IMG/VR virus record: IMGVR_UViG_3300009428_000100
Coordinates: 1 to 21,085 of that record
Reading direction: 5' to 3' (one strand)
DNA length: 21,085 nucleotides
DNA from: a virus
Position numbers and translations under genes: made by a program. Shown one piece after another: positions 9,025 through 21,085 of the stretch. The notes under the pieces are model-generated. The model was given only the letters and a program-made list of their open reading frames with translations, did no database searches and had not been told where the DNA came from. Each line of letters begins with the position of its first letter. The stretch's first letter is position 1.

Positions 9025-9116
9025 CCCCCTATCACGGCTTACTCCTCCTCACCGCTATCTGGATCGTATGGATCATTGCTGAGTGGTGGGGGAGGAATTG
9101 GAAAGGAGATGGATGA
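9021..9116 (+). CDS. Tiny Trp-rich membrane protein, 31 aa
   Basis: ATG 9021 overlaps the preceding stop (ATGA), and the TGA (9114-9116) overlaps the next ATG (9113). The peptide MTPYHGLLLLTAIWIVWIIA plus EWWGRNWKGDG is one transmembrane helix with five tryptophans, three of them at the membrane edge. The double overlap makes it a likely true gene despite its size. Confidence 0.65.
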   Translation: MTPYHGLLLLTAIWIVWIIAEWWGRNWKGDG

Positions 9117-9376
9117 TGTGGCCTTGGAAGAAGACAGCCCCGGTTAGGGCCCCAGCCCCGCCGTTGTCCCGCGAGTGGGTCGCTGTGAAGGATCAAATGC
9201 CTCCGACGAGTCACCAGCAAATCCTGTTGTGGAACGGGCGCTTCCCTCGCCTAGGCCTATGCCTCGGGCTGCGAAATATGCCTGTCTCCCGCAACAACAC
9301 AGGGTTTTACACCTTCTACGAAGAACGGATTCACGACGTGACCCACTGGGCACCGATACCTGAATACCCGCAGTAA
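9113..9376 (+). CDS. DUF551-like phage protein
   Basis: The 87-aa product has the DUF551 outline: REWVAVKDQMPP near residue 21, a strand QQILLWNGRF, and the C-terminal VTHWAPIPEYP that matches the family's THWMPLPEPP ending. DUF551 proteins are common small early phage proteins of unknown role. ATG 9113 is preferred because it overlaps the preceding stop and follows AAGGAGAT closely; ATG 9116 is also possible. Confidence 0.82.
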   Translation: MMWPWKKTAPVRAPAPPLSREWVAVKDQMPPTSHQQILLWNGRFPRLGLCLGLRNMPVSRNNTGFYTFYEERIHDVTHWAPIPEYPQ

Positions 9377-12515: not shown

Positions 12516-13166
12516 ATGAGCATTGCAACTTTGGTCCTTGGGAGTTCAGGTAGCGGCAAGTCGACCAGCCTGCGCAACCTCGACCCATCCAAGACCCTCC
12601 TGATTCAGTGCATCAAGAAGCCTCTGCCTTTCCGTGCGACGGGATGGAAGACACGCAAGGATATTCGCGACGAGGGCAACGTGATCCGCACCGACAGCCC
12701 GGCGCTGATCGAGAAGATCATGCGGTCATCGCCCCACGAAATCATCGTGATCGATGACTACCAGGCGGTCATGGTTAACGAGCTGATGGGGCGAAGCACT
12801 GAAACCGGCTTCACCAAGTTCTCGGACATTGGAAAAAACGCTTGGAACATCTTCACCGCGGCCGGCGGCCTAGCAGACCATCGCCGCGTCTACATCCTCG
12901 CGCACACGCAGACCGATGACTTCGGAAACGTGCGAATGAAGACCGTAGGCAAGATGGTCGATCAAACCCTCGTGCCGGAAGGCTATTTCACCATCGTGCT
13001 GCGCACAGAAGTGCGTGACGCGCAGTACTACTTCAGCACGCAAACTAACGGGCAGGACTGCTGCAAGAGCCCGATTGGCATGTTTGCAGATCGCCACATC
13101 GACAACGACCTCGCCCTCGTTGACGAAGCGATCACGAGCTTTTATGAGCTGGAGGCGGTCGCGTGA
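12516..13166 (+). CDS. Sak4-type single-strand annealing / recombination ATPase
   Basis: The 216-aa RecA-fold protein has Walker A GSSGSGKS (residues 9-16), Walker B IIVIDD (76-81) and the YILAHTQ motif (126-132), and ends with NDLALVDEAI, as in Sak4 (Rad51-like) recombinases of Pseudomonas and lactococcal phages. Sak4 proteins anneal single strands and work with a phage SSB. ATG 12516 fits with AGAGAGG upstream. It is followed, after an endonuclease gene, by an SSB-like protein and an exonuclease, the expected partners. An AAA ATPase label would also be given by general searches. Confidence 0.88.
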   Translation: MSIATLVLGSSGSGKSTSLRNLDPSKTLLIQCIKKPLPFRATGWKTRKDIRDEGNVIRTDSPALIEKIMRSSPHEIIVIDDYQAVMVNELMGRSTETGFTKFSDIGKNAWNIFTAAGGLADHRRVYILAHTQTDDFGNVRMKTVGKMVDQTLVPEGYFTIVLRTEVRDAQYYFSTQTNGQDCCKSPIGMFADRHIDNDLALVDEAITSFYELEAVA

Positions 13167-13771
13167 GGCCGCTAGACCTCACAGGGCAGCGCTTCGGGAT
13201 GCTCGTTGCGCTTTCCCTGCACAGCCGAGAGAAAGGCCAAGCCGTATGGCTTTGCCGCTGCGACTGCGGCGCCGAGTCAAAAGCAATGCTCGGCAACCTG
13301 AGGCGCGGCCACACCACAAGCTGCGGCTGCCAGCGGGCGGCTGTTACCGCTCGGAACAAGACGCGGCACGCTATGTACGGCACGCCGACCTACAGGTCTT
13401 GGTCGTCAATGCTCACCCGCTGTACCAACCCTGCAAATCACAAGTTTGCTGACTACGGCGGTCGCGGAATCGCAGTCCATGAGGCCTGGAAGTCCTTCGA
13501 GGGGTTCTATGCGGACATGGGCGAGCGGCCAGCCGGAACGACGCTTGGCCGCAAGGACAACGACGGCGATTACGAGCCAGGCAATTGCCGATGGGAGTCA
13601 GCGAAGCAGCAAGGCCGCAACAAGCGCAACACGGCCAGCTTCGAGCATGACGGCATCACAGCAACCATACCCGAACACTGCGAACGGCTAGGGCTGAGCC
13701 CGAGCACTGTCCGCAGCCGAATCTACACCCATGGCTGGCCTATAGAGCGAGCCCTGAAGGCGTCCGCCTAA
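13163..13771 (+). CDS. HNH/AP2-type homing endonuclease-like protein
   Basis: GTG start overlapping the Sak4 stop (GTGA), with GGAGG upstream. The 202-aa product has an N-terminal Cys cluster (C31, C33, C35, C54, C56), a central block (74-153) with TYRSWSSMLTRCTNP, FADYGGRGI, and the TLGRKDNDGDYEPGNCRW motif typical of this phage endonuclease family, and a C-terminal helix-turn-helix-like segment (165-198). Such genes are mobile and insert between essential phage genes. It separates sak4 from the ssb-like gene. Cleavage activity is assumed from the family. Confidence 0.78.
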   Translation: MRPLDLTGQRFGMLVALSLHSREKGQAVWLCRCDCGAESKAMLGNLRRGHTTSCGCQRAAVTARNKTRHAMYGTPTYRSWSSMLTRCTNPANHKFADYGGRGIAVHEAWKSFEGFYADMGERPAGTTLGRKDNDGDYEPGNCRWESAKQQGRNKRNTASFEHDGITATIPEHCERLGLSPSTVRSRIYTHGWPIERALKASA

Positions 13772-13788: not shown

Positions 13789-14436
13789 ATGTTCGCACTC
13801 GACCAGAACGCCGCCCGCGCGGCTGATAACAAATCGGCATTCATCGACGAAGCCGGCAAGTACATCGGCACCTTCACCCGCGCCGAGTACATGGAGAAGC
13901 AGGAAACCGGGTCGACCGGGATTGGCTTCACCTTCAAGTCACGCGAAGGCGCAGAAGGCCAGTTCTACGTGAACCTGAGCTATCAACACGGCACCCGCAA
14001 CAAAGGGGGCTATGACCTGATCAACGCAATGATGGCCTGCATGCATTTGCCTAAAGTCGGCAACCCTCAGCCAGTCGAGGTTGAAAAGTGGGATGGCGAG
14101 ACAAAGCAGCGCGTCAAATCAACTGTTCAGGGCTTCCCAGAGCTGATGGGGAAGCCGATTGGCCTCCTGCTGCAGATGGAGATTGAGAAGAACAGCCAGA
14201 ACGGTAACGCCCGCCCAACCATCTATGCGCCGTTCAGTGCTGAATCCGAGAAGACTGCCTCCGAGATCTGCGACAAGGCGGCTACACCCGCGAAGCTGGA
14301 GAAGATGGTGCAGGCCGTCATGCAGCGACCACTAATCGATCGCCGCCCGAAGGACAAACAAACCAGTAGCGGCACGGCGACCGAATACGGCGACAACTAC
14401 GCCCGCCCGGACGACGCAGACGACATTCCTTGGTAA
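13789..14436 (+). CDS. Phage single-stranded DNA-binding protein (SSB-like)
   Basis: The 215-aa product begins MFALDQNAARAADNKSAFID, includes an OB-like beta-rich middle (GFTFKSREGAEGQFYVNLSY) and ends with the acidic tail DDADDIPW, the hallmark of SSB C-termini that recruit partner proteins. AAGGAG precedes the ATG closely. The family accompanies Sak4 or Erf-type recombinases in phages and binds ssDNA during annealing. A strong candidate for the Sak4 partner. The OB fold is inferred from pattern, not proved. Confidence 0.83.
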   Translation: MFALDQNAARAADNKSAFIDEAGKYIGTFTRAEYMEKQETGSTGIGFTFKSREGAEGQFYVNLSYQHGTRNKGGYDLINAMMACMHLPKVGNPQPVEVEKWDGETKQRVKSTVQGFPELMGKPIGLLLQMEIEKNSQNGNARPTIYAPFSAESEKTASEICDKAATPAKLEKMVQAVMQRPLIDRRPKDKQTSSGTATEYGDNYARPDDADDIPW

Positions 14437-14445
14437 GCATATCTA

Positions 14446-14469
14446 GGGCGCTTCGGCGCCCTTCTCTTT
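14446..14469 (+). terminator. Hairpin with UUCG loop and U-rich tail, possible partial terminator
   Basis: GGGCGC (14446-14451), loop TTCG, GCGCCC (14456-14461), followed by TTCTCTTT. The C(UUCG)G loop is unusually stable. It lies between the ssb-like gene and the inserted endonuclease gene; antitermination from P_L would be needed to read on, or it may protect mRNA ends. Confidence 0.55.
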
Positions 14470-14479
14470 GGGGCTGAAT

Positions 14480-14986
14480 ATGAACACTTGCTCTATTGAG
14501 GGGTGCGCCAAGCGCGCCGAAAAGCGCGGGTGGTGCGCAATGCACTACCGGCGCTGGCGGGTTCACGGCGACACATCCATCACGAAGAAAGCAGCGAACG
14601 GCGCTGGCTACCTACAGAACGGATATCCAGGCCACCAGGTAGATGGCGTTCGAGTGTTCGACCATGTGCGAATCGCCGAAAAGGCACTTGGCAAGCCGCT
14701 GCCGCCAGGTGCTGTCGTGCACCACGTCAACGAGATCAAGACGGATAACCGGAACGAGAACCTGGTCATCTGCCCAGATCGCGCATACCACAACCTGATT
14801 CATGCCCGAACGGACGCATACAACGCGACTGGCGATGCCACAAAGCGCAAGTGCAGACACTGCAAGCAATACGACGACTTGGAGAACCTGCGGGTCTACG
14901 AGCGGGAAACAACAACAAGCTATTGGCATGCCCAGTGCGCAAGGGATAACGCCAACGAAAAATACTGGAGACAGAAAAATGGTTAA
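14480..14986 (+). CDS. HNH homing endonuclease
   Basis: The 168-aa product begins MNTCSIEGCAKRAEKRGWCA with an N-terminal zinc-binding motif (C4, C9, C19, H22), then a typical HNH core: GAVVHHVNEIKTDNRNENL (residues 78-95; H81, H82, N90) and YHNLIHAR (103-110), and a C-terminal Cys pair (CRHC, 125-128). It is placed between the SSB-like gene and the exonuclease, whose start overlaps its stop by 8 nt. ATG 14480 is chosen over an upstream TTG in frame. Likely a selfish insertion. Confidence 0.9.
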   Translation: MNTCSIEGCAKRAEKRGWCAMHYRRWRVHGDTSITKKAANGAGYLQNGYPGHQVDGVRVFDHVRIAEKALGKPLPPGAVVHHVNEIKTDNRNENLVICPDRAYHNLIHARTDAYNATGDATKRKCRHCKQYDDLENLRVYERETTTSYWHAQCARDNANEKYWRQKNG

Positions 14987-15731
14987 CGTGTACTTGGACA
15001 TCGAGTCGATACCCGGCCAGTCACAGGCAGTGATGGAGCTGTTCCGCGAGGACGCACAAGCCGACATGGATGCCGTGCGCGCCCCGGCCAACTACAAGGA
15101 CGAAGCGAAGATCGCTGAGTACATCGCTGCCAAGCGTGCCGAGATCGAAGAAGGCATCGAAGAGCGCTGGCGTAAAACCAGCTTCGACGGCGCGCTGGGC
15201 CACGTTGCAGTGATTGGTTACGCCATTGGCGATGATGAGCCGGTGACGCTCTACCACGACGCATACGGAACGCCAGAGGCGGAGCGCGACATGCTTGCCG
15301 GGTTCTTCGCAGCAGTCGATAGCGCGGGCGGCAGGATGCTTGCCGGTGGCACTCGAGCCGGATCGGTGCCGACCATCATCGGGCACAACGTGCTGGACTT
15401 CGATCTGCGCTTCATCTTCCAGCGCGCGGTGATGCTCGGCATTCGCCCGCCGCAGTGCCTGCCCTTCGACGCGAAGCCCTGGGACAAGACGGTATTCGAC
15501 ACCATGACCGCATGGGCCGGCGCCCGTAACCGGGTCAGCCTCGACAAGCTGTGCCGCGCCTTCGGCATCGCAGGCAAGGGCAGCGAGATCGGAGACGACA
15601 TCGACGGCAGCAAGGTTTGGGACTTCGTGAAGGCTGGTCGCATCGCTGACGTTGCCCGGTACTGCGCCGGAGACGTAGAGCGAGTTCGACAGATTCACCA
15701 GCGCCTCACCTTTCAATCTGCCGCAGCCTGA
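14979..15731 (+). CDS. DnaQ-like 3'-5' exonuclease
   Basis: The 250-aa product has the three exonuclease motifs: Exo I D7-x-E9 in YLDIES, Exo II IIGHNVLDFDLRF (133-145; N137, D140/D142) and Exo III YCAGD (Y228, D232). This marks a DEDDy-type 3'-5' exonuclease, of the kind found beside phage recombinases. With Sak4 and the SSB-like protein it forms a plausible resection-annealing module. GGAGA precedes ATG 14979; an upstream in-frame reading mirrors the HNH gene. Confidence 0.88.
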   Translation: MVNVYLDIESIPGQSQAVMELFREDAQADMDAVRAPANYKDEAKIAEYIAAKRAEIEEGIEERWRKTSFDGALGHVAVIGYAIGDDEPVTLYHDAYGTPEAERDMLAGFFAAVDSAGGRMLAGGTRAGSVPTIIGHNVLDFDLRFIFQRAVMLGIRPPQCLPFDAKPWDKTVFDTMTAWAGARNRVSLDKLCRAFGIAGKGSEIGDDIDGSKVWDFVKAGRIADVARYCAGDVERVRQIHQRLTFQSAAA

Positions 15732-15738
15732 CCCACCC

Positions 15739-15756
15739 GGGCGCCCCTCGGCGCCC
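15739..15756 (+). repeat. GC-rich hairpin after the exonuclease gene
   Basis: GGGCGCC (15739-15745), loop CCTC, GGCGCCC (15750-15756), a strong dyad that resembles the one at 14446 in its stem. There is only a C-rich tail (TCCTCCCC), so it is a weak terminator at best. Confidence 0.5.
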
Positions 15757-15775
15757 TCCTCCCCGGACAATAACC

Positions 15776-15997
15776 ATGAACAAACCGACCGGCACCCGCC
15801 TGGGCAGGCTGATAAAGCGTGTCTCGGATTCGGGTATCACAGAAAAACGCTGCCCCTGCTGCGACGAATGGAAACCCCATGACGACGCGCATTACCAGTT
15901 TTTGAAGACCCGCGGCTACCGGCGCAGCGAGTGCCGGAAGTGTGTGGCTGCAAAGCAGGTTGCCTATCAGCGAGCGAAGAGGCAGGCAGCAGCATGA
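15776..15997 (+). CDS. Small zinc-finger protein, 73 aa
   Basis: The product begins MNKPTGTRLGRLIKRVSDSG and carries CPCC (26-29) and CRKC (53-56), a pattern like the zinc finger linked to HNH endonucleases and some phage regulators, without the HNH core. It is basic, so DNA or RNA binding is plausible. The stop overlaps the next start (ATGA). The ribosome site is weak. Confidence 0.75.
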   Translation: MNKPTGTRLGRLIKRVSDSGITEKRCPCCDEWKPHDDAHYQFLKTRGYRRSECRKCVAAKQVAYQRAKRQAAA

Positions 15998-16200
15998 CAC
16001 GAGACGAATACCTAAGCCGCGCTTATGAGTTCGCGCGCCGTGGCGAACAGCTGCCGCACGCGAGGCTGAATGCCGGCCTGGTGCGAGAGATCAGATCCAA
16101 TCGCGGCATGACCGCAAAGCAATGGGCCGAGAAGCTGGGCGTTCACGTCCGAACCATCACTGGAGCCCGCGAGTACAGAACCTGGCGGCATGTGGCGTAA
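15994..16200 (+). CDS. Small HTH protein, 68 aa
   Basis: ATG 15994 overlaps the previous stop. The product begins MTRDEYLSRAYEFARRGEQL and contains a helix-turn-helix (residues about 35-58: MTAKQWAEKLGVHVRTITGA), so it is probably a DNA-binding protein. Similar small HTH proteins with this N-terminus occur in phage early regions. Function unknown; could regulate the operon. Confidence 0.78.
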   Translation: MTRDEYLSRAYEFARRGEQLPHARLNAGLVREIRSNRGMTAKQWAEKLGVHVRTITGAREYRTWRHVA

Positions 16201-16210
16201 CGGAGGAAGC

Positions 16211-16858
16211 ATGAACCCCGAATCAGGCAGGCGAAAAACCGGCTGGAAGGCTTGGAGCGCAGCGGATGACGCGCAACTGGTTGAGTACTGGAAGACGCTC
16301 CCGCTCGGTGACGTGGCTCAGCGGATGGGCCGCAGTACCAGCTCCGTCTACAACCGCGTCCAGAAGCTCGGACTGAAGCGCACCGAGGAATACAAAGCCA
16401 TTACCGGCTGCGGGCGTATCAAGAAAGGTTCCGAGCCCTGGAACAAAGGCAAGAAGGGCTGGCAGGCAGGAGGTCGGGCCAAGGAAACACAATTCAAGCT
16501 AGGCGACAGGCCATCGAACACATGGCGACCCATCGGCGCCGAACGCACCGGAAAGGGTGGCGTGCTGTATCGCAAGGTGGCTGATACAGGTGACAAGAAG
16601 GTCGACTGGCGCGCAGTTCACGTCCTGATATGGGAAGAGGGCAACGGCCCGCTGCCACCCGGTCACATCGTCGTGTTCGGAGACAAGAACCCCGACAACC
16701 TATCCCCTGACAACCTGCTAGCCATCACCCGCGCCGAAAACATGCGGCGCAACTCAATCGACCGCTACCCGCCAGAGTACCGCAGCACGGCGCTGACGCT
16801 CGGCTGGTTCCGCCGCAAGCTCAACAAATTGGAGACAGCACATGAACAACCTATCTGA
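16211..16858 (+). CDS. HNH endonuclease with Myb-like N-terminal domain
   Basis: GGAGG just before ATG 16211 fixes the start; a start at 16190 is possible but lacks a site. The 215-aa product has an N-terminal SANT/Myb-like segment (AWSAADDAQLVEYWKTLPLG, then GRSTSSVYNRVQKLGL), a basic linker, and an HNH core at 130-181 (WRAVHVLIWEEGNGPLPPG, HIVVFGDKNPDNLSPDNL, AENMRRN). It is the third mobile-type endonuclease in this stretch. Its C-terminus overlaps the next gene by 17 nt. The usual second His is replaced by Val/Phe (HIVVFGD), as is common in this subfamily. Confidence 0.85.
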   Translation: MNPESGRRKTGWKAWSAADDAQLVEYWKTLPLGDVAQRMGRSTSSVYNRVQKLGLKRTEEYKAITGCGRIKKGSEPWNKGKKGWQAGGRAKETQFKLGDRPSNTWRPIGAERTGKGGVLYRKVADTGDKKVDWRAVHVLIWEEGNGPLPPGHIVVFGDKNPDNLSPDNLLAITRAENMRRNSIDRYPPEYRSTALTLGWFRRKLNKLETAHEQPI

Positions 16859-17081
16859 CCTGCGCGCGATCCTCGGCGAAACCATGCGCAAGGTGATGGA
16901 CGGACAGATCAGCGTCGACCAGGCAAAGGCCGTTGCGATGGTGGCGGGCGAAGTGAACGCCACCGCCCGGCTGGAAGTGGACATGGCACGTGCTACCGAT
17001 GGCGATTTCAGAGGATCCGGCTTTATCGACGTAGAGCCGCGCATCGGCCAGCGCGAGTCTCTACGCAGGATTGCAGGGTGA
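16842..17081 (+). CDS. Hypothetical 79-aa phage protein
   Basis: ATG 16842 with GGAG upstream overlaps the endonuclease end. The product begins MNNLSDLRAILGETMRKVMD, a mostly helical protein (DQAKAVAMVAGEVNATARLE) ending IGQRESLRRIAG. The overlap with the endonuclease gene suggests the insertion ended just at this gene's start. No named family. Confidence 0.8.
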   Translation: MNNLSDLRAILGETMRKVMDGQISVDQAKAVAMVAGEVNATARLEVDMARATDGDFRGSGFIDVEPRIGQRESLRRIAG

Positions 17082-17290
17082 TGGCGGAGCTATCCGATAC
17101 CGCCAAGGCCATCTGCGCCAAGCACTACAACTTCAAATCACGCAGCAGCTGCAACGCCTGCCCTCTCCAACCTGAATGCCATAGGCCATGCGAGACGCTT
17201 ACCCAGGCGTCCCTCAATGAATGGCGCGGACGAGTGGATAGGCTTGCCGAACAGCACACAAGGGGCGACACATGCGCACCTACACCCTGA
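17081..17290 (+). CDS. Small Cys-rich protein, 69 aa
   Basis: ATG 17081 is used (TGATG with the prior stop); GTG 17078 in frame is an alternative. The product begins MAELSDTAKAICAKHYNFKS and has C12, C24, C27, C33 and C37 (CNACPLQPEC), a cluster suited to zinc or iron-sulphur binding. Its C-terminus overlaps the next gene by 19 nt. Function unknown. Confidence 0.75.
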   Translation: MAELSDTAKAICAKHYNFKSRSSCNACPLQPECHRPCETLTQASLNEWRGRVDRLAEQHTRGDTCAPTP

Positions 17291-17676
17291 CCCTAACTGA
17301 ACGCCAAGCCGCCGAACTGCAAGAGGCCTGCGAGCTGCTAGCGCGGATCAAGATCGGCCAGATCGACCACGCCATTGAACGGCTACCGGGCTATTACGAC
17401 CTACGCGACTACGAGCGCAGACACGCGGCTCAAGACGAGATAAAGCGTTTGGCGAACACGCTGATGTCCGAGGCGACCCGGCGTCGCGAGGATGGTGCTG
17501 CATGGGATCTGTATCAGGTTATCCGGCATCGGCTGGCATGGGATCGCGCGTATGACCAAGGCGTGATCCAGCCCGGCGAAGCACGGAAATGGCCCGAGAT
17601 GATGGGCGTCTGCTATGACGACCCGCTGGCAATGAGCGGACTGCCGTTGGCTACGATCAAGGAGATTGAGCAATGA
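17272..17676 (+). CDS. Hypothetical 134-aa phage protein
   Basis: AGGGGCG precedes ATG 17272. The product begins MRTYTLTLTERQAAELQEAC, a strand-helix start also seen in many phage early proteins, then a helical region (EIKRLANTLMSEATRRREDG) and a C-terminal part with WDLYQVIRHRLAWDRAY. No known function. Stop overlaps the next start (ATGA). Confidence 0.8.
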   Translation: MRTYTLTLTERQAAELQEACELLARIKIGQIDHAIERLPGYYDLRDYERRHAAQDEIKRLANTLMSEATRRREDGAAWDLYQVIRHRLAWDRAYDQGVIQPGEARKWPEMMGVCYDDPLAMSGLPLATIKEIEQ

Positions 17677-18161
17677 ACGAGACACTGAAGGCAGCAGGAA
17701 ACTTAGGCGCTGAGCTGGGGGCTGCGAGGGCGGAGATTGAGAAGTTGCGTAAGGCGCTGCAAGGCATGGTCGACTTCTACGGCTATGCCGAGCAAGGGCC
17801 AATTGAAGCCGCCCGCGCCGCGCTATCCCAGCAGGCCGAGCAGCAGCCTGCTTGCTGGGCTTCCAGCACTGCACTGGCAAAGCTGCAGAACGGGCGCAAC
17901 AACTCGCCGTGTGTGCTTACTGACGGGCCTGCAGAGTTCAACGATACGCCGCTCTACGCCGCCCCGCAGCCGGAGCAGAGCGTGCCGGAAGGCTTCGCAC
18001 TGGTTCCAGTGAAGCCGACCGTGGAAATGATTGCCGCATTGGGCTTCGAAGGAGATGAAGTCGCGGCAATAGGTCATGCATCAATATTTTCTGAGATGAC
18101 CGAGTGCTACGGCGCAATGCTAGCTGTCGCACCCAGCCCCGCCATGGATGCCCAACAATGA
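17673..18161 (+). CDS. Ead/Ea-like phage protein, 162 aa
   Basis: ATG 17673 overlaps the prior stop. The product begins [20 protein letters not shown] with a coiled coil to about residue 55. Its middle and C-terminus have the repeated lambdoid accessory pattern: [47 protein letters not shown] and a final [13 protein letters not shown]. Proteins with these blocks occur in many phages as modular accessory genes of unknown role. Its stop overlaps the dfrB-like start. Confidence 0.85.
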
Positions 18162-18355
18162 AAATGAAGTTCAAACACGGCGACCTAGTACGCAAGACCG
18201 CCGGCAGCGAGTGGGAAGGCCATATCTGCGGCACCTACTCCACGGAATTGACGCCAGAGGGCTACGCAGTCGAGAGTTCGGCGCATAAAGGCAGCGTGCA
18301 GATCTACCCGGCTAAGGCGCTGGAACTGGTGCCTATGGATGCGAAGGAGGAGTGA
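18158..18355 (+). CDS. dfrB: DfrB-like (R67-type) dihydrofolate reductase
   Basis: The 65-aa product is nearly the whole SH3-like core of type II DHFR. From memory of plasmid R67 DHFR, the blocks [17 protein letters not shown] and [12 protein letters not shown] match, including active-site V47-Q48-I49-Y50 (R67 V66-Q67-I68-Y69) and K13 (R67 K32). DfrB enzymes are homotetramers that reduce dihydrofolate with NADPH at a central pore and resist trimethoprim. The disordered N-terminus of R67 is missing but is dispensable there. ATG 18158 overlaps the prior stop (ATGA). It belongs to the P_L operon, so it should be silent while CI is bound. Activity is inferred, not shown. Confidence 0.87.
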
Positions 18356-18688
18356 ATGGATAGTCAACTCAAGCAATGGCGAGACGATCAGAAGCACCTG
18401 CCGGAATTCATGCGGGACTTCCAAAACTGCAAGCAACTGTTCAAGGGGATCGCTGACTACATCGAGTTGGAAGACGATCATCCAGCCAAGGAGGTCAACT
18501 GGCGGCAGGCTCACTGCTACACCATTGACGTGTTCCTCTGGTTCATGGCCCGGCACGGGTTCACGCTGCAAAGATCCAGGGCAAAGCAGAACTTCGACGA
18601 TCTGGATGCGCTGCTGGATGAGCTGGATCGCTTGCGTCGACAAGCATTCACGGACGCGATGCTGAAGCACAGCTCACCAACCCCCTAA
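18356..18688 (+). CDS. Hypothetical 110-aa phage protein
   Basis: ATG 18356 directly abuts the dfrB-like stop, with GGAGGAG inside that gene's end. The product begins MDSQLKQWRDDQKHLPEFMR and includes KEVNWRQAHCYTIDVFLWFM and a C-terminal helix (FDDLDALLDELDRLRRQ). Helical, acidic; such genes accompany phage early accessory genes. Function unknown. A link to folate metabolism would rest on position only. Confidence 0.8.
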   Translation: MDSQLKQWRDDQKHLPEFMRDFQNCKQLFKGIADYIELEDDHPAKEVNWRQAHCYTIDVFLWFMARHGFTLQRSRAKQNFDDLDALLDELDRLRRQAFTDAMLKHSSPTP

Positions 18689-18710
18689 CCCACACACCAC
18701 ATCACAGCCT

Positions 18711-18726
18711 GCCGGCGAGAGTCGGC
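18711..18726 (+). repeat. Hairpin with GAGA loop
   Basis: GCCGGC (18711-18716), loop GAGA, GTCGGC (18721-18726), with one G-U pair. It lies in the short gap before the 115-aa gene, close to its ribosome site (GGGGAGG). Confidence 0.45.
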
Positions 18727-18740
18727 GGGGAGGTAGAGAC

Positions 18741-19088
18741 ATGTTCGCTGAATCTGAAATGACGGAGATAATGCGCAAAGCCAACGAGGCGGAAACAGCG
18801 TATCGCCTTGAGCAATCACGGAAGCTCGACGAGGCCTTGGCCTACGTGTCGACGCTTGTCAGCCCGCGCAAGCTGCAGCACATCAAGGAGTACATCGCAG
18901 AGTCCGAGATCACCAGCGACTTTGAGATAACCGAAACCCACGGCGGCCACAAGGAAGACTGCATTGGCTATGCGTTCCGATACGCCTACATCGACCAGCG
19001 AAACGGATATCTCGGCGACGACTGCAGCGGGGAAATCTGGATTCCGCTGCCAAAAGGCAAGTTCCTGAAATTCCACTTCGCGATGTAG
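18741..19088 (+). CDS. Hypothetical 115-aa phage protein
   Basis: GGAGG about 7 nt upstream of ATG 18741. The product begins MFAESEMTEIMRKANEAETA and is helical to about residue 55, then has a beta-rich C-terminal half (YAFRYAYIDQRNGYLGDD, GEIWIPLPKGKFLKFHFAM). No family recognised. Confidence 0.8.
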   Translation: MFAESEMTEIMRKANEAETAYRLEQSRKLDEALAYVSTLVSPRKLQHIKEYIAESEITSDFEITETHGGHKEDCIGYAFRYAYIDQRNGYLGDDCSGEIWIPLPKGKFLKFHFAM

Positions 19089-19106
19089 TCGCAGCAGGAG
19101 ATAGAC

Positions 19107-19355
19107 ATGCAGCACACAGACACGGCGATAGCAGAGTTCGAGGCGTGGTGGATTCGTCAGCCTCACCGCGAGCAGTTCGAGGACGTGAAGGACCAGATGC
19201 GGAATGTGTGGGTGGCCTCGCGGAGGGAGTTGGTGATTCAGCTGCCAGCAAAGCCGGGCGCCGACACGTTCACGCGAGTCCAGAGCGCTTACTGGCAAGG
19301 CATTGACAAGGTTGCAGGCCAAGCCGAAGCAGCCGGCGTAACGGTGAGGGGGTGA
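19107..19355 (+). CDS. Hypothetical 82-aa phage protein
   Basis: GGAG precedes ATG 19107. The product begins MQHTDTAIAEFEAWWIRQPH and includes EQFEDVKDQMRNVWVASRRE, a phage protein pattern (FEAWW, WVASR) found in early accessory genes. It ends only 3 nt before the xis start. Function unknown. Confidence 0.8.
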   Translation: MQHTDTAIAEFEAWWIRQPHREQFEDVKDQMRNVWVASRRELVIQLPAKPGADTFTRVQSAYWQGIDKVAGQAEAAGVTVRG

Positions 19356-19358
19356 GGG

Positions 19359-19709
19359 ATGGGCGCACGAGAGAAACCAGAGCCGATTGAAGGCCAGCAG
19401 GTCGATAAGGTTTACGAGAGGAAGTTGGCCGAACTGATCGGCACGACGCCGAAGGCCTTGGAGCGGAAGCGTCAGCGCGGAGTGTTGCCGCCTGGCGTAT
19501 GGGAGAAGATCGACGGCTGTATCATGTACAGCCTGGAGAGGTACAACGAATGGGCAGAAAGTCAGTGGGGCTCCCCCAAGGCGTCGAGATCGCTGGGGGC
19601 TCCGTCCGCATCCGCTTCACATGGAAGAAAGAGCGACGTTGCGAAACGCTCCCCTATCCTCAAACGCCCAAGGGATTTGCAGCAGCAGCAGGTTTACGAG
19701 CTCAGGTAA
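19359..19709 (+). CDS. xis: Excisionase (directionality factor)
   Basis: The 116-aa product has a MerR/excisionase-type winged helix in its first 70 residues: KLAELIGTTPKALERKRQRG (22-41), VWEKIDGCIMYSLERYNEW (48-66), matching excisionases of the Pseudomonas/enterobacterial type that bind attP arms and turn the integrase towards excision. It precedes int and overlaps it by 160 nt in another frame; the winged helix ends near where int begins, leaving a basic, low-complexity tail. GTGAGGG precedes ATG 19359. It is in the P_L operon, so excision follows induction. Confidence 0.85.
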   Translation: MGAREKPEPIEGQQVDKVYERKLAELIGTTPKALERKRQRGVLPPGVWEKIDGCIMYSLERYNEWAESQWGSPKASRSLGAPSASASHGRKSDVAKRSPILKRPRDLQQQQVYELR

Positions 19710-20689
19710 CGCAGCTGATCAAGCTCGGTATGCTCACGGACGACAAGTATGCCGAGCTCTTCCCCTCCTCCCGCTACACCTTGGCACGCATCACCCCGAC
19801 CTTTGGGCACTTCGCGCAGCTCTGGCTGGACAGCCGGCAGATCGTGTTCAACACCCGCCGCAACTACCTGCGAGTCCTCAATAAATACTGGATGCCTCAC
19901 TGGGCCACGAAGCGCCTGGACGAGATCCTTCCGGTAGATGTTCGGGTTCTGATGACCAAGATCGAATGGAACTCGGCAACCGACCGGAACGCCGCGGTAC
20001 AGGCAGCAAAGGCAATCTTCGAGGCGGCGACCAAAGACGGCATCATTGCCGAGAACCCGATGCGCTCAGTTGAGAAGGCCAGGGAGGCCGAGCGCGACAT
20101 TGACCCATTCACCCCGGCTGAGCGTGACGCCATCCTGGCCGACCTGTACGGGCGCCTGACGGGCATTCGCCGGAGTTACGCATCCTTCTTCAAGCTGGCG
20201 TTCTACACCGGGCTGCGGACAGGTGAGCAGCTTTCGTTGCGCTGGTCAGACGTGGACCTTCCCGCTCGGACGATTCGCATCCGGTCGACGCTCGAGAAAG
20301 GCAAGGCGCGGGACAACACGAAGACCAAGCGCATTCGCAAGGTGCTATTGGTGGATCAGGCCATCGAGGCGCTGGAAGAAATGGCCGAGCTCACTCGCGA
20401 CTGGAATGAGTTCGTGTTTGCGCCCACCAGCGGCGCGAAAGGCAACATCAGCAACGTGGTCAGCACGGCCTATCATCTGAAGCAGTCGATGAAGCGGCTG
20501 GGCATTCGCCCGCGTCGGCAGTACGATACGCGGCACACCTACGCAACGGTTTGCCTGTCGGCTGGTATCGCTCCGGCCTTCATTGCGCAGCAGCTTGGCA
20601 ACAGTATCGAAACGCTGCTGAAGCACTACGCCAAGTGGATCTCTTCCAGTGCCGACTGGGCCGAACTGGACAAGCTGAAAAACAGCTAA
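19550..20689 (+). CDS. int: Tyrosine recombinase integrase
   Basis: The 379-aa protein begins MGRKSVGLPQGVEIAGGSVR, an arm-binding N-terminal domain (DUF3596 type) to about residue 75, a core-binding domain (about 82-180) and the catalytic domain (about 187-379). Catalytic residues: R223 in GLRTGEQL, the TKTKR lysine near 260, R328 and H329 in YDTRHTYAT, and Y360 in LLKHYAKW. Y325 takes the place of the usual first His of HxxR, and LGN (349-351) replaces the usual LGH. It catalyses integration and, with Xis, excision. ATG 19550 has GGAGAGG upstream; longer starts in frame lie inside xis. Confidence 0.95.
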   Translation: MGRKSVGLPQGVEIAGGSVRIRFTWKKERRCETLPYPQTPKGFAAAAGLRAQVTQLIKLGMLTDDKYAELFPSSRYTLARITPTFGHFAQLWLDSRQIVFNTRRNYLRVLNKYWMPHWATKRLDEILPVDVRVLMTKIEWNSATDRNAAVQAAKAIFEAATKDGIIAENPMRSVEKAREAERDIDPFTPAERDAILADLYGRLTGIRRSYASFFKLAFYTGLRTGEQLSLRWSDVDLPARTIRIRSTLEKGKARDNTKTKRIRKVLLVDQAIEALEEMAELTRDWNEFVFAPTSGAKGNISNVVSTAYHLKQSMKRLGIRPRRQYDTRHTYATVCLSAGIAPAFIAQQLGNSIETLLKHYAKWISSSADWAELDKLKNS

Positions 20690-20690
20690 A

Positions 20691-20707
20691 TGGTACGAAA
20701 TTGGTAC
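20691..20707. repeat. Direct repeat, candidate integrase arm sites
   Basis: TGGTAC occurs at 20691-20696 and again at 20702-20707, 11 bp apart (one helical turn), directly after the int stop. Such paired repeats next to int are typical of arm-binding sites. The attachment core itself should lie a little further right, before 20821. Confidence 0.45.
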
Positions 20708-20716
20708 AGAGGCGAA

Positions 20717-20737
20717 GCGGCAAACCTTAAAAGCCGC
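20717..20737 (+). repeat. Weak hairpin after int
   Basis: GCGGC (20717-20721) and GCCGC (20733-20737) pair across an 11-nt A-rich loop. No U-tract follows, so not a clear terminator. It could belong to the att region. Confidence 0.3.
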
Positions 20738-20773
20738 ACAGCACTAGACGTACAGCGATTTCTTTGAACTTCG

Positions 20774-20792
20774 CGGTATAGTAAAAATACCG
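20774..20792. promoter_or_regulatory. Inverted repeat upstream of the TetR gene, likely operator
   Basis: CGGTAT-AGTAAAA-ATACCG is a perfect 6-bp dyad with a 7-bp AT-rich spacer, 28 bp before the TetR ATG. TetR-type regulators usually control their own promoter through such dyads. It may also overlap the phage/host junction. Confidence 0.5.
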
Positions 20793-20820
20793 AACTCACC
20801 AGTCTAGTATTAAAAACACC

Positions 20821-21085
20821 CATGACCGACAGCTCACCCGCACCGTCCGGCCCAGGCCGCCCAAAGGACCCCGCCAAGCGCGAGGCAATCCTCGCGGCTG
20901 CCCAAACCCTGTTTCTCGGCAATGGCTATGAAGGCAGCAGCATGGACGCCATCGCCGCCGAAGCCGGCGTGTCGAAGCTCACGCTGTACAGCCACTTCAA
21001 GGACAAGGAGGCGCTGTTCGGCGCAGCGGTAAAGGCAACCTGCGAAACGCGTCTGCCGCGCCGGCTGTTCGTGCTGGAGGATGGG
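20821..21085 (+). CDS. TetR/AcrR-family regulator, partial (host flank)
   Basis: Eighty-eight codons are visible, running off the right edge. After a Pro/Ser-rich start (MTDSSPAPSGPGRPKDPAKR) comes the TetR helix-turn-helix: EAILAAAQTLFLGNGYEGSS, MDAIAAEAGVSKLTLYSHF, KDKEALF. The family represses transcription and releases DNA on ligand binding; efflux pumps are frequent targets. The high GC and codon use suit the chromosome rather than the phage, marking the right flank. No clear ribosome site precedes the ATG. Confidence 0.93.

Follow-up and report, generated by a model that had tools for sequence, protein, structure and literature searches.

The window, by which we mean the whole stretch of DNA analyzed here, is an IMG/VR virus record of 21,085 bases. 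Toward its right end, the gene order runs rightward from early phage genes through accessory ORFs, which include a dfrB-like gene, to an excisionase, an integrase ORF, and a TetR-family regulator (Table 1). The integrase probably starts inside the overlap with the excisionase gene, and the TetR gene at the window end is probably host flank. Pfam and PHROG searches gave no match for the 134-aa ORF that precedes the gene directly upstream of dfrB. We saw no integron integrase or resistance gene within the window, and we recognized no nucleotide-metabolism gene beside dfrB there. We found no tRNA in the window that could be an attachment site, and a sigma-70 promoter scan of positions 15500 to 21085 gave no match. 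An earlier note on this DNA had reported a 65-aa DfrB-type gene lying in a prophage early region and not in an integron. Its coordinates, reading frame, and motifs (VQIY and K13, the equivalent of K32 in R67) proved exact, and the ssb, exonuclease, xis, and int genes around dfrB bear out the setting.

Table 1. Features of the window around dfrB
Feature	Position	Strand	Evidence or remark
Single-strand DNA-binding protein	13789..14436	+	phrog_743, E = 5e-42; marks the early replication/recombination region
DNA polymerase exonuclease-type protein	14802..15731	+	phrog_403, E = 3e-19
Early-operon ORF, 134 aa	17272..17676	+	ORF and position conserved in related prophages
Upstream ORF, 162 aa	17673..18161	+	Mosaic early-protein family; N-terminal LGAELGAA[K/R]AE module; TGA overlaps dfrB ATG
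dfrB-like CDS, 65 aa	18158..18355	+	R67/DfrB SH3-like domain, residues 4-58
K13 codon (= R67 K32)	18194-18196	+	R67 alignment
W19 codon (= R67 W38)	18212-18214	+	R67 alignment
VQIY codons, V47-Q48-I49-Y50 (= R67 V66-Y69)	18296..18307	+	Invariant across phages
ORF directly 3' of dfrB, 110 aa	18356..18688	+	phrog_15705 (family without functional label)
Early-operon ORF, 115 aa	18741..19088	+	phrog_33960 (family without functional label)
Excisionase	19359..19709	+	phrog_9668, E = 5e-45
Tyrosine-integrase ORF	19499..20689	+	Translation; aligns with Pseudomonas phage integrases
TetR-family regulator, cut by window end	20822..21085	+	PF00440

At the DNA level the region matched 22 phage records. All of them are Pseudomonas phages, with PS-1 the best match, and we therefore infer that the host is Pseudomonas or a near relative. 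A second IMG/VR contig (L002) is not an independent observation, because it is identical to the window over 11,658 bases. When terminase (phrog_2) was used as a phage-hallmark test, few of the virus records, many of which are fragments, gave a match, and 11 of 14 control genomes did. By eye, the ORFs at 13163-13771, 14468-14986, and 16190-16858 resemble HNH-type endonucleases and are possibly free-standing homing endonucleases.

The product is a DfrB-family protein

DfrB confers drug resistance and is not known to be related to any other dihydrofolate reductase (DHFR). We found that the window protein aligned with the R67 chain 1vie in a PDB search (E = 1.6e-18 over 55 residues) and scored 78.4 bits (E = 3.7e-22) against Pfam PF06442 (DHFR_2), where the cut-off is 25; the DfrB identity given earlier is thus upheld. 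DHFR_2 was the sole Pfam match, and canonical FolA/DfrA DHFR (PF00186) was not matched. The protein also matched PHROG 31682, a phage family without a functional label (E = 2.5e-18). An AlphaFold monomer model made from a 54-sequence alignment (A5) had a pLDDT of 89.5. In Foldseek, this model matched 1vie and 6nxz with a TM score of 0.95 and an rmsd of 0.5 Å; over the R67 crystal structures the rmsd ranged from 0.5 to 0.7 Å, and TM reached 0.98 by target length. The DfrB fold has been described as lacking a characterized relative (PMC9835603). Other Foldseek matches (PWWP, Tudor, and ribosomal SH3 domains) were generic SH3-like barrels with E > 0.01. We took a PDB match to the kinase PkwA (E = 2e-5) as chance, since no single stretch passes alone and the match vanishes with a profile. 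DUF2158, aligned by HHalign at 15% over only 16 columns with one sequence, was dropped as a relative.

Compared with R67/DfrB1 (PF06442; 1vie, 2rk1), the window protein is 60 to 65% identical over the domain and is predicted to have the same SH3-like protomer fold. It keeps VQIY, K32 (ligand charge), W38 (tetramer interface), and H62, which is H43 in the window protein. It differs from R67 in having T26 in place of W45, in lacking the N-terminal tail of 21 residues that plasmid DfrBs (78 aa) carry, and in being encoded in a prophage and not in an integron. W45 is reported not to be conserved in distant homologues, and its replacement to be tolerated (PMC9835603). Unlike the named resistance determinants, the window protein falls below the curated cut-off of NCBIfam NF000331, trim_DfrB (90 versus 137 bits), and it is therefore not to be called an acquired resistance gene. 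Annotation pipelines should avoid labeling such phage genes as acquired trimethoprim resistance.

The dfrB gene starts with an ATG at 18158 and ends with a TGA at 18353-18355; an alternative in-frame GTG at 18104 would give an 83-aa protein. The ATG overlaps the stop codon of the upstream ORF (ATGA), and an obvious Shine-Dalgarno sequence is absent, which together suggest termination-reinitiation at dfrB. Because of this overlap, both proteins are probably produced jointly by translational coupling.

DfrB as one end of a mosaic early protein

Two parts of this region are conserved at about 78 to 85% among related prophages: positions 17673-17758, where the gene upstream of dfrB begins (~86 bases), and the DfrB domain at 18179-18324. 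The stretch between 17758 and 18179 had no match to related prophages, and the order of the flanking parts is fixed. In 62 of the examined loci, the DfrB domain forms the C terminus of a longer protein, and the N-terminal parts of these proteins belong to one family with an LGAELGAA[K/R]AE-type start. The window's upstream ORF carries the same start as these fused proteins. As seen in the identical contig L140, it is also one of eight proteins that have this start and no DfrB domain. We concluded that in the Pseudomonas relatives a mosaic early protein usually ends in DfrB, whereas in the window DfrB is split off. A Pfam scan of 98 extended DfrB proteins found a Lar restriction-alleviation domain in two and DUF551 in one; KIF9, reported in three, was taken as spurious. 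By eye, the end (WVAVKDQMP...THWAPIPEYP) of a 97-aa ORF at 9083-9376 of the window looks like DUF551, which is a further module shuffled among the early proteins of phages.

The closest named phage relative is BAR92343 of Pseudomonas phage PS-1 (72% identity over 50 aa). Its locus has the same order before the excisionase and integrase as the window, but its DfrB domain is the C terminus of a 167-aa mosaic protein, whereas the window DfrB is free-standing. BAR92343 is probably the DfrB-H3 of PMC9835603, whose source is described there only as a Pseudomonas phage, beside a DNA methyltransferase. A 218-aa protein of Vibrio phage 1.030.O is 63.5% identical to the window DfrB over 52 aa, and we infer that it is DfrB-H4 of the same study. 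It differs from the window DfrB in being fused, in the type of phage, and in its neighbors, which include a nearby DNA methylase.

A split of this kind could have left a nonfunctional domain, and the window dfrB would then be a decaying relic. Most relatives are indeed fused, the gene relies on the overlap for its start, and the dN/dS against the closest relative, L005, is 0.56, a value that comes from only ~14 differences. The ORF is nevertheless intact with its pore residues kept, and dN/dS against most other close relatives is 0.11 to 0.29, so that the gene is under purifying selection. Moreover, free-standing DfrBs (about 59 to 70 aa) are common elsewhere in phages, where 68 of 181 viral loci carry no extension at all. 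We therefore consider decay improbable.

Phage DfrBs and the resistance genes

IMG/VR held at least 156 relatives of the window protein, at least 263 when searched with the family alignment, and more with other seeds. At least 26 INPHARED records and 98 plasmids also carried DfrBs, and at least 42 loci were present in bacterial and archaeal genomes among 84,980 species. After removal of near-duplicates, at least 181 viral loci remained. The pattern searches returned the best 80 matches each, so these counts are minimum values with a bias toward sequences like the seeds. The phage copies come mostly from environmental samples. Three contigs (L012, L013, and L100) had more than one DfrB-profile match, as duplicates in one phage or genome stretch.

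Phage DfrBs have been published before. DfrB2 matches at 67% identity were reported in four freshwater phage contigs in 2020 (PMC7265639); these dfrB2-like ORFs lie on phage contigs as the window gene does, but the contigs are from environmental viruses. DfrB-H4 from a Vibrio phage conferred trimethoprim resistance in 2023 (PMC9835603), and eight lytic-phage DfrB candidates were counted in 2025 (PMC12466917). The earlier note had pointed to phages as a natural reservoir of the family. The large and diverse viral pool agrees with this; phage DfrBs themselves are not new, and what is added here is the scale and a near-invariant pore.

We built a tree of 126 DfrB domains over 54 columns, in which many forks are unresolved. 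The plasmid variants DfrB1 to DfrB10 and the Burkholderiales chromosomal genes formed one group of 19 (support, 85/75), which lies inside a supported set of 52 rows with 30 phage sequences (99/91). Phage sequences stand on both sides of the tree midpoint. With a remote outgroup, the GDYxF family described below, the plasmid group again nested among phages; this root is unsafe because the outgroup branch carries about 10 changes per column. Fifty-four columns are too few, and the DfrB tree therefore cannot be rooted. Hardly any neighbors of the Burkholderiales loci are phage-like, and these loci are not prophage genes. A Stutzerimonas locus (L102) is a prophage, with viral matches for 24 of its 28 genes. 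It has been argued that Burkholderiales, whose chromosomes hold dfrB outside mobile elements, are the original hosts (PMC11662351). Our Burkholderiales loci agree with such a chromosomal setting, and to that picture our data add that the wider DfrB family is mostly phage. In the tree, clinical and Burkholderiales genes make up a single small group placed, with weak support, among sequences from phages. An origin of the resistance family in phages is suggested by this place of the clinical clade. Against it stand the weak support, the alternatives that AU tests leave standing, and the chromosomal copies of Burkholderiales.

The window protein itself groups with L003 to L011, and its nearest relatives are all from phages (89% identity to L005). 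These relationships bear on whether the window gene could be a recently captured plasmid or integron resistance gene, carried as prophage cargo. Temperate phages can carry cargo genes, and the protein is 64.8% identical to DfrB1 over 54 aa. However, the low trim_DfrB score does not fit such a capture, and the same locus is found in many related prophages. Tree neighborhood and synteny already contradict a recent capture, and we give it almost no credence.

We found one phage-type DfrB in resistance plasmids. This 67-aa protein, L089, is encoded on Pseudomonas aeruginosa plasmid pXM8-2 (4959-5177), has no N-terminal tail, and shares 73.6% identity with the window protein across 53 aa. Its gene sits between arr-3 and catB3, reversed relative to its neighbors, in an array with sul1 and qacEdelta1 that is typical of a class 1 integron. 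The cassette is present in six plasmids. L089 is absent from the AMRFinder calls listed in PLSDB, and a phage-type copy in resistance integrons thus went uncalled. With L089, the mobile pool of clinical genes contains a DfrB family member that is not one of the numbered variants. In the tree it groups with phage sequences. AU tests rejected neither a tree with the L089 cassette placed in the DfrB1-10 clade (p = 0.22) nor one that unites all plasmid copies (p = 0.086), so independent captures stay a suggestion. Apart from integrons, plasmid DfrBs of Rhizobium sp. (L092) and Ensifer adhaerens (L093) group with viral contigs L271 and L273 (100/95); the L092 gene lies beside a Tn3 transposase and a recombinase, in another mobile pool.

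The pore and folate supply

H62 tunes the R67 tetramer. To avoid circularity, we determined residue conservation only in those unique viral domains, 141 in number, that could be found with a pattern free of VQIY; the ranking of this set still favors sequences resembling the seeds. V66, Q67, I68, Y69, Y46, and T51 were invariant in all 141 domains. K32 and W38 were each present in 140, and S65 differed twice. Position 62 was H in 71 domains and E in 69. Engineered DfrB1 with three or four of the VQIY residues replaced is still active (PMC9835603), and the invariance of VQIY therefore goes beyond what the enzyme needs. The same study proposed that, before trimethoprim was used, the ancestors of DfrB had their activity adventitiously. 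Pore residues that are nearly unchanged across so many phage copies argue instead that the pore is selected, whatever its task. The native role of DfrB thereby becomes testable.

We consider it probable, though well short of certain, that the window gene encodes a free-standing type II (R67-like) DHFR of a Pseudomonas prophage. Judging from R67, four copies would form a tetramer with one central pore, in which K13 would hold the charges on NADPH (phosphate) and dihydrofolate (glutamate), and VQIY would align both ligands for direct hydride transfer. Perhaps, once the prophage is induced, the protein appears early and supplies extra tetrahydrofolate and, through it, dTMP and purines from which phage DNA is synthesized. 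Its fold may also make it insensitive to trimethoprim, which would not be the reason that phages carry DfrB.

ThyA makes dihydrofolate, and ThyX does not. A DfrB with a supply role might therefore accompany ThyA and not ThyX. We found ThyA in 5 of 42 long DfrB-positive records and ThyX in none of the 42. Canonical DHFR was likewise found in none of these records and hence in none of the five with ThyA. Among 50 control contigs with ThyA, 23 had canonical DHFR, and DfrB over the cut-off was found in none. The difference in canonical DHFR (0 of 5 versus 23 of 50) had a one-sided Fisher p of ~0.06, calculated by hand. This hints that one DHFR type replaces the other in ThyA-positive phages. In most DfrB carriers, including the Pseudomonas-type phages, no phage-encoded thymidylate synthase was seen, and a phage DHFR in them would therefore feed host enzymes. 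The role in nucleotide supply suggested by the earlier note draws weak support from the five records with ThyA, and the 37 without it weigh against it.

The 37 records also fit another account, in which the window DfrB is a ligand-binding module whose pore binds a molecule resembling a nucleotide or folate, either to soak up a host signal or to regulate the mosaic protein, and DHFR activity is a by-product. The mosaic architecture, with conserved bookends and a hypervariable middle that can carry Lar or DUF551, is what such a module would look like. Moreover, DfrB-H3 gave no trimethoprim resistance in Escherichia coli, where no expression was visible (PMC9835603). On the other hand, the residues that position NADPH and dihydrofolate are those that hardly vary, the isolated domains of DfrB-H4, -H5, and -H6 act phenotypically like DfrB1 (PMC9835603), and the DfrB fold is tied to no known defense signal. 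We regard a binding module as possible but rather unlikely, and we keep a DHFR as the preferred reading.

A wider scenario, which as a whole we put forward tentatively and regard as rather unlikely, is that phages are the main reservoir and probable home of type II DHFR. The clinical and Burkholderiales genes would be a small offshoot, L089 an independent capture by integrons, and the pore a selected folate-handling device and not adventitious, with a root in an SH3-like domain linked to ThyA. Such a domain appeared in our control search as a small family (GDYxF...LH[V/I][Y/F]) that lies beside phage ThyA or is fused to it, in some ThyA proteins as a small N-terminal domain (loci L350, L352, L430, L431, L432, and L436 to L515). 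In HHalign against the DfrB profile, it scored 94% (E = 1e-7) with 8 sequences and 92% with 42 unique sequences, over 54 to 55 aligned columns. The family keeps the K32-equivalent lysine and the closing IY/VY, and it differs from DfrB in having LH[V/I][Y/F] for VQIY and F for W38. Two members that we scanned had no Pfam match above the cut-off (DHFR_2 was not reached) and no PHROG match. The loci are closely related, the E values are from single comparisons, and SH3-like barrels are easily confused; the GDYxF domain as a remote DfrB relative beside ThyA is therefore a lead and not a finding. In Rhizobium phages RHEph10 and RHph_N1_10, the reading frame of the domain continues into the ThyA gene or overlaps it, and in Pelagibacter phage Kolga its ORF ends 4 bp before ThyA. 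Among the matches listed, ThyA directly followed the GDYxF ORF in 29 of 80 viral loci, one of them fused.
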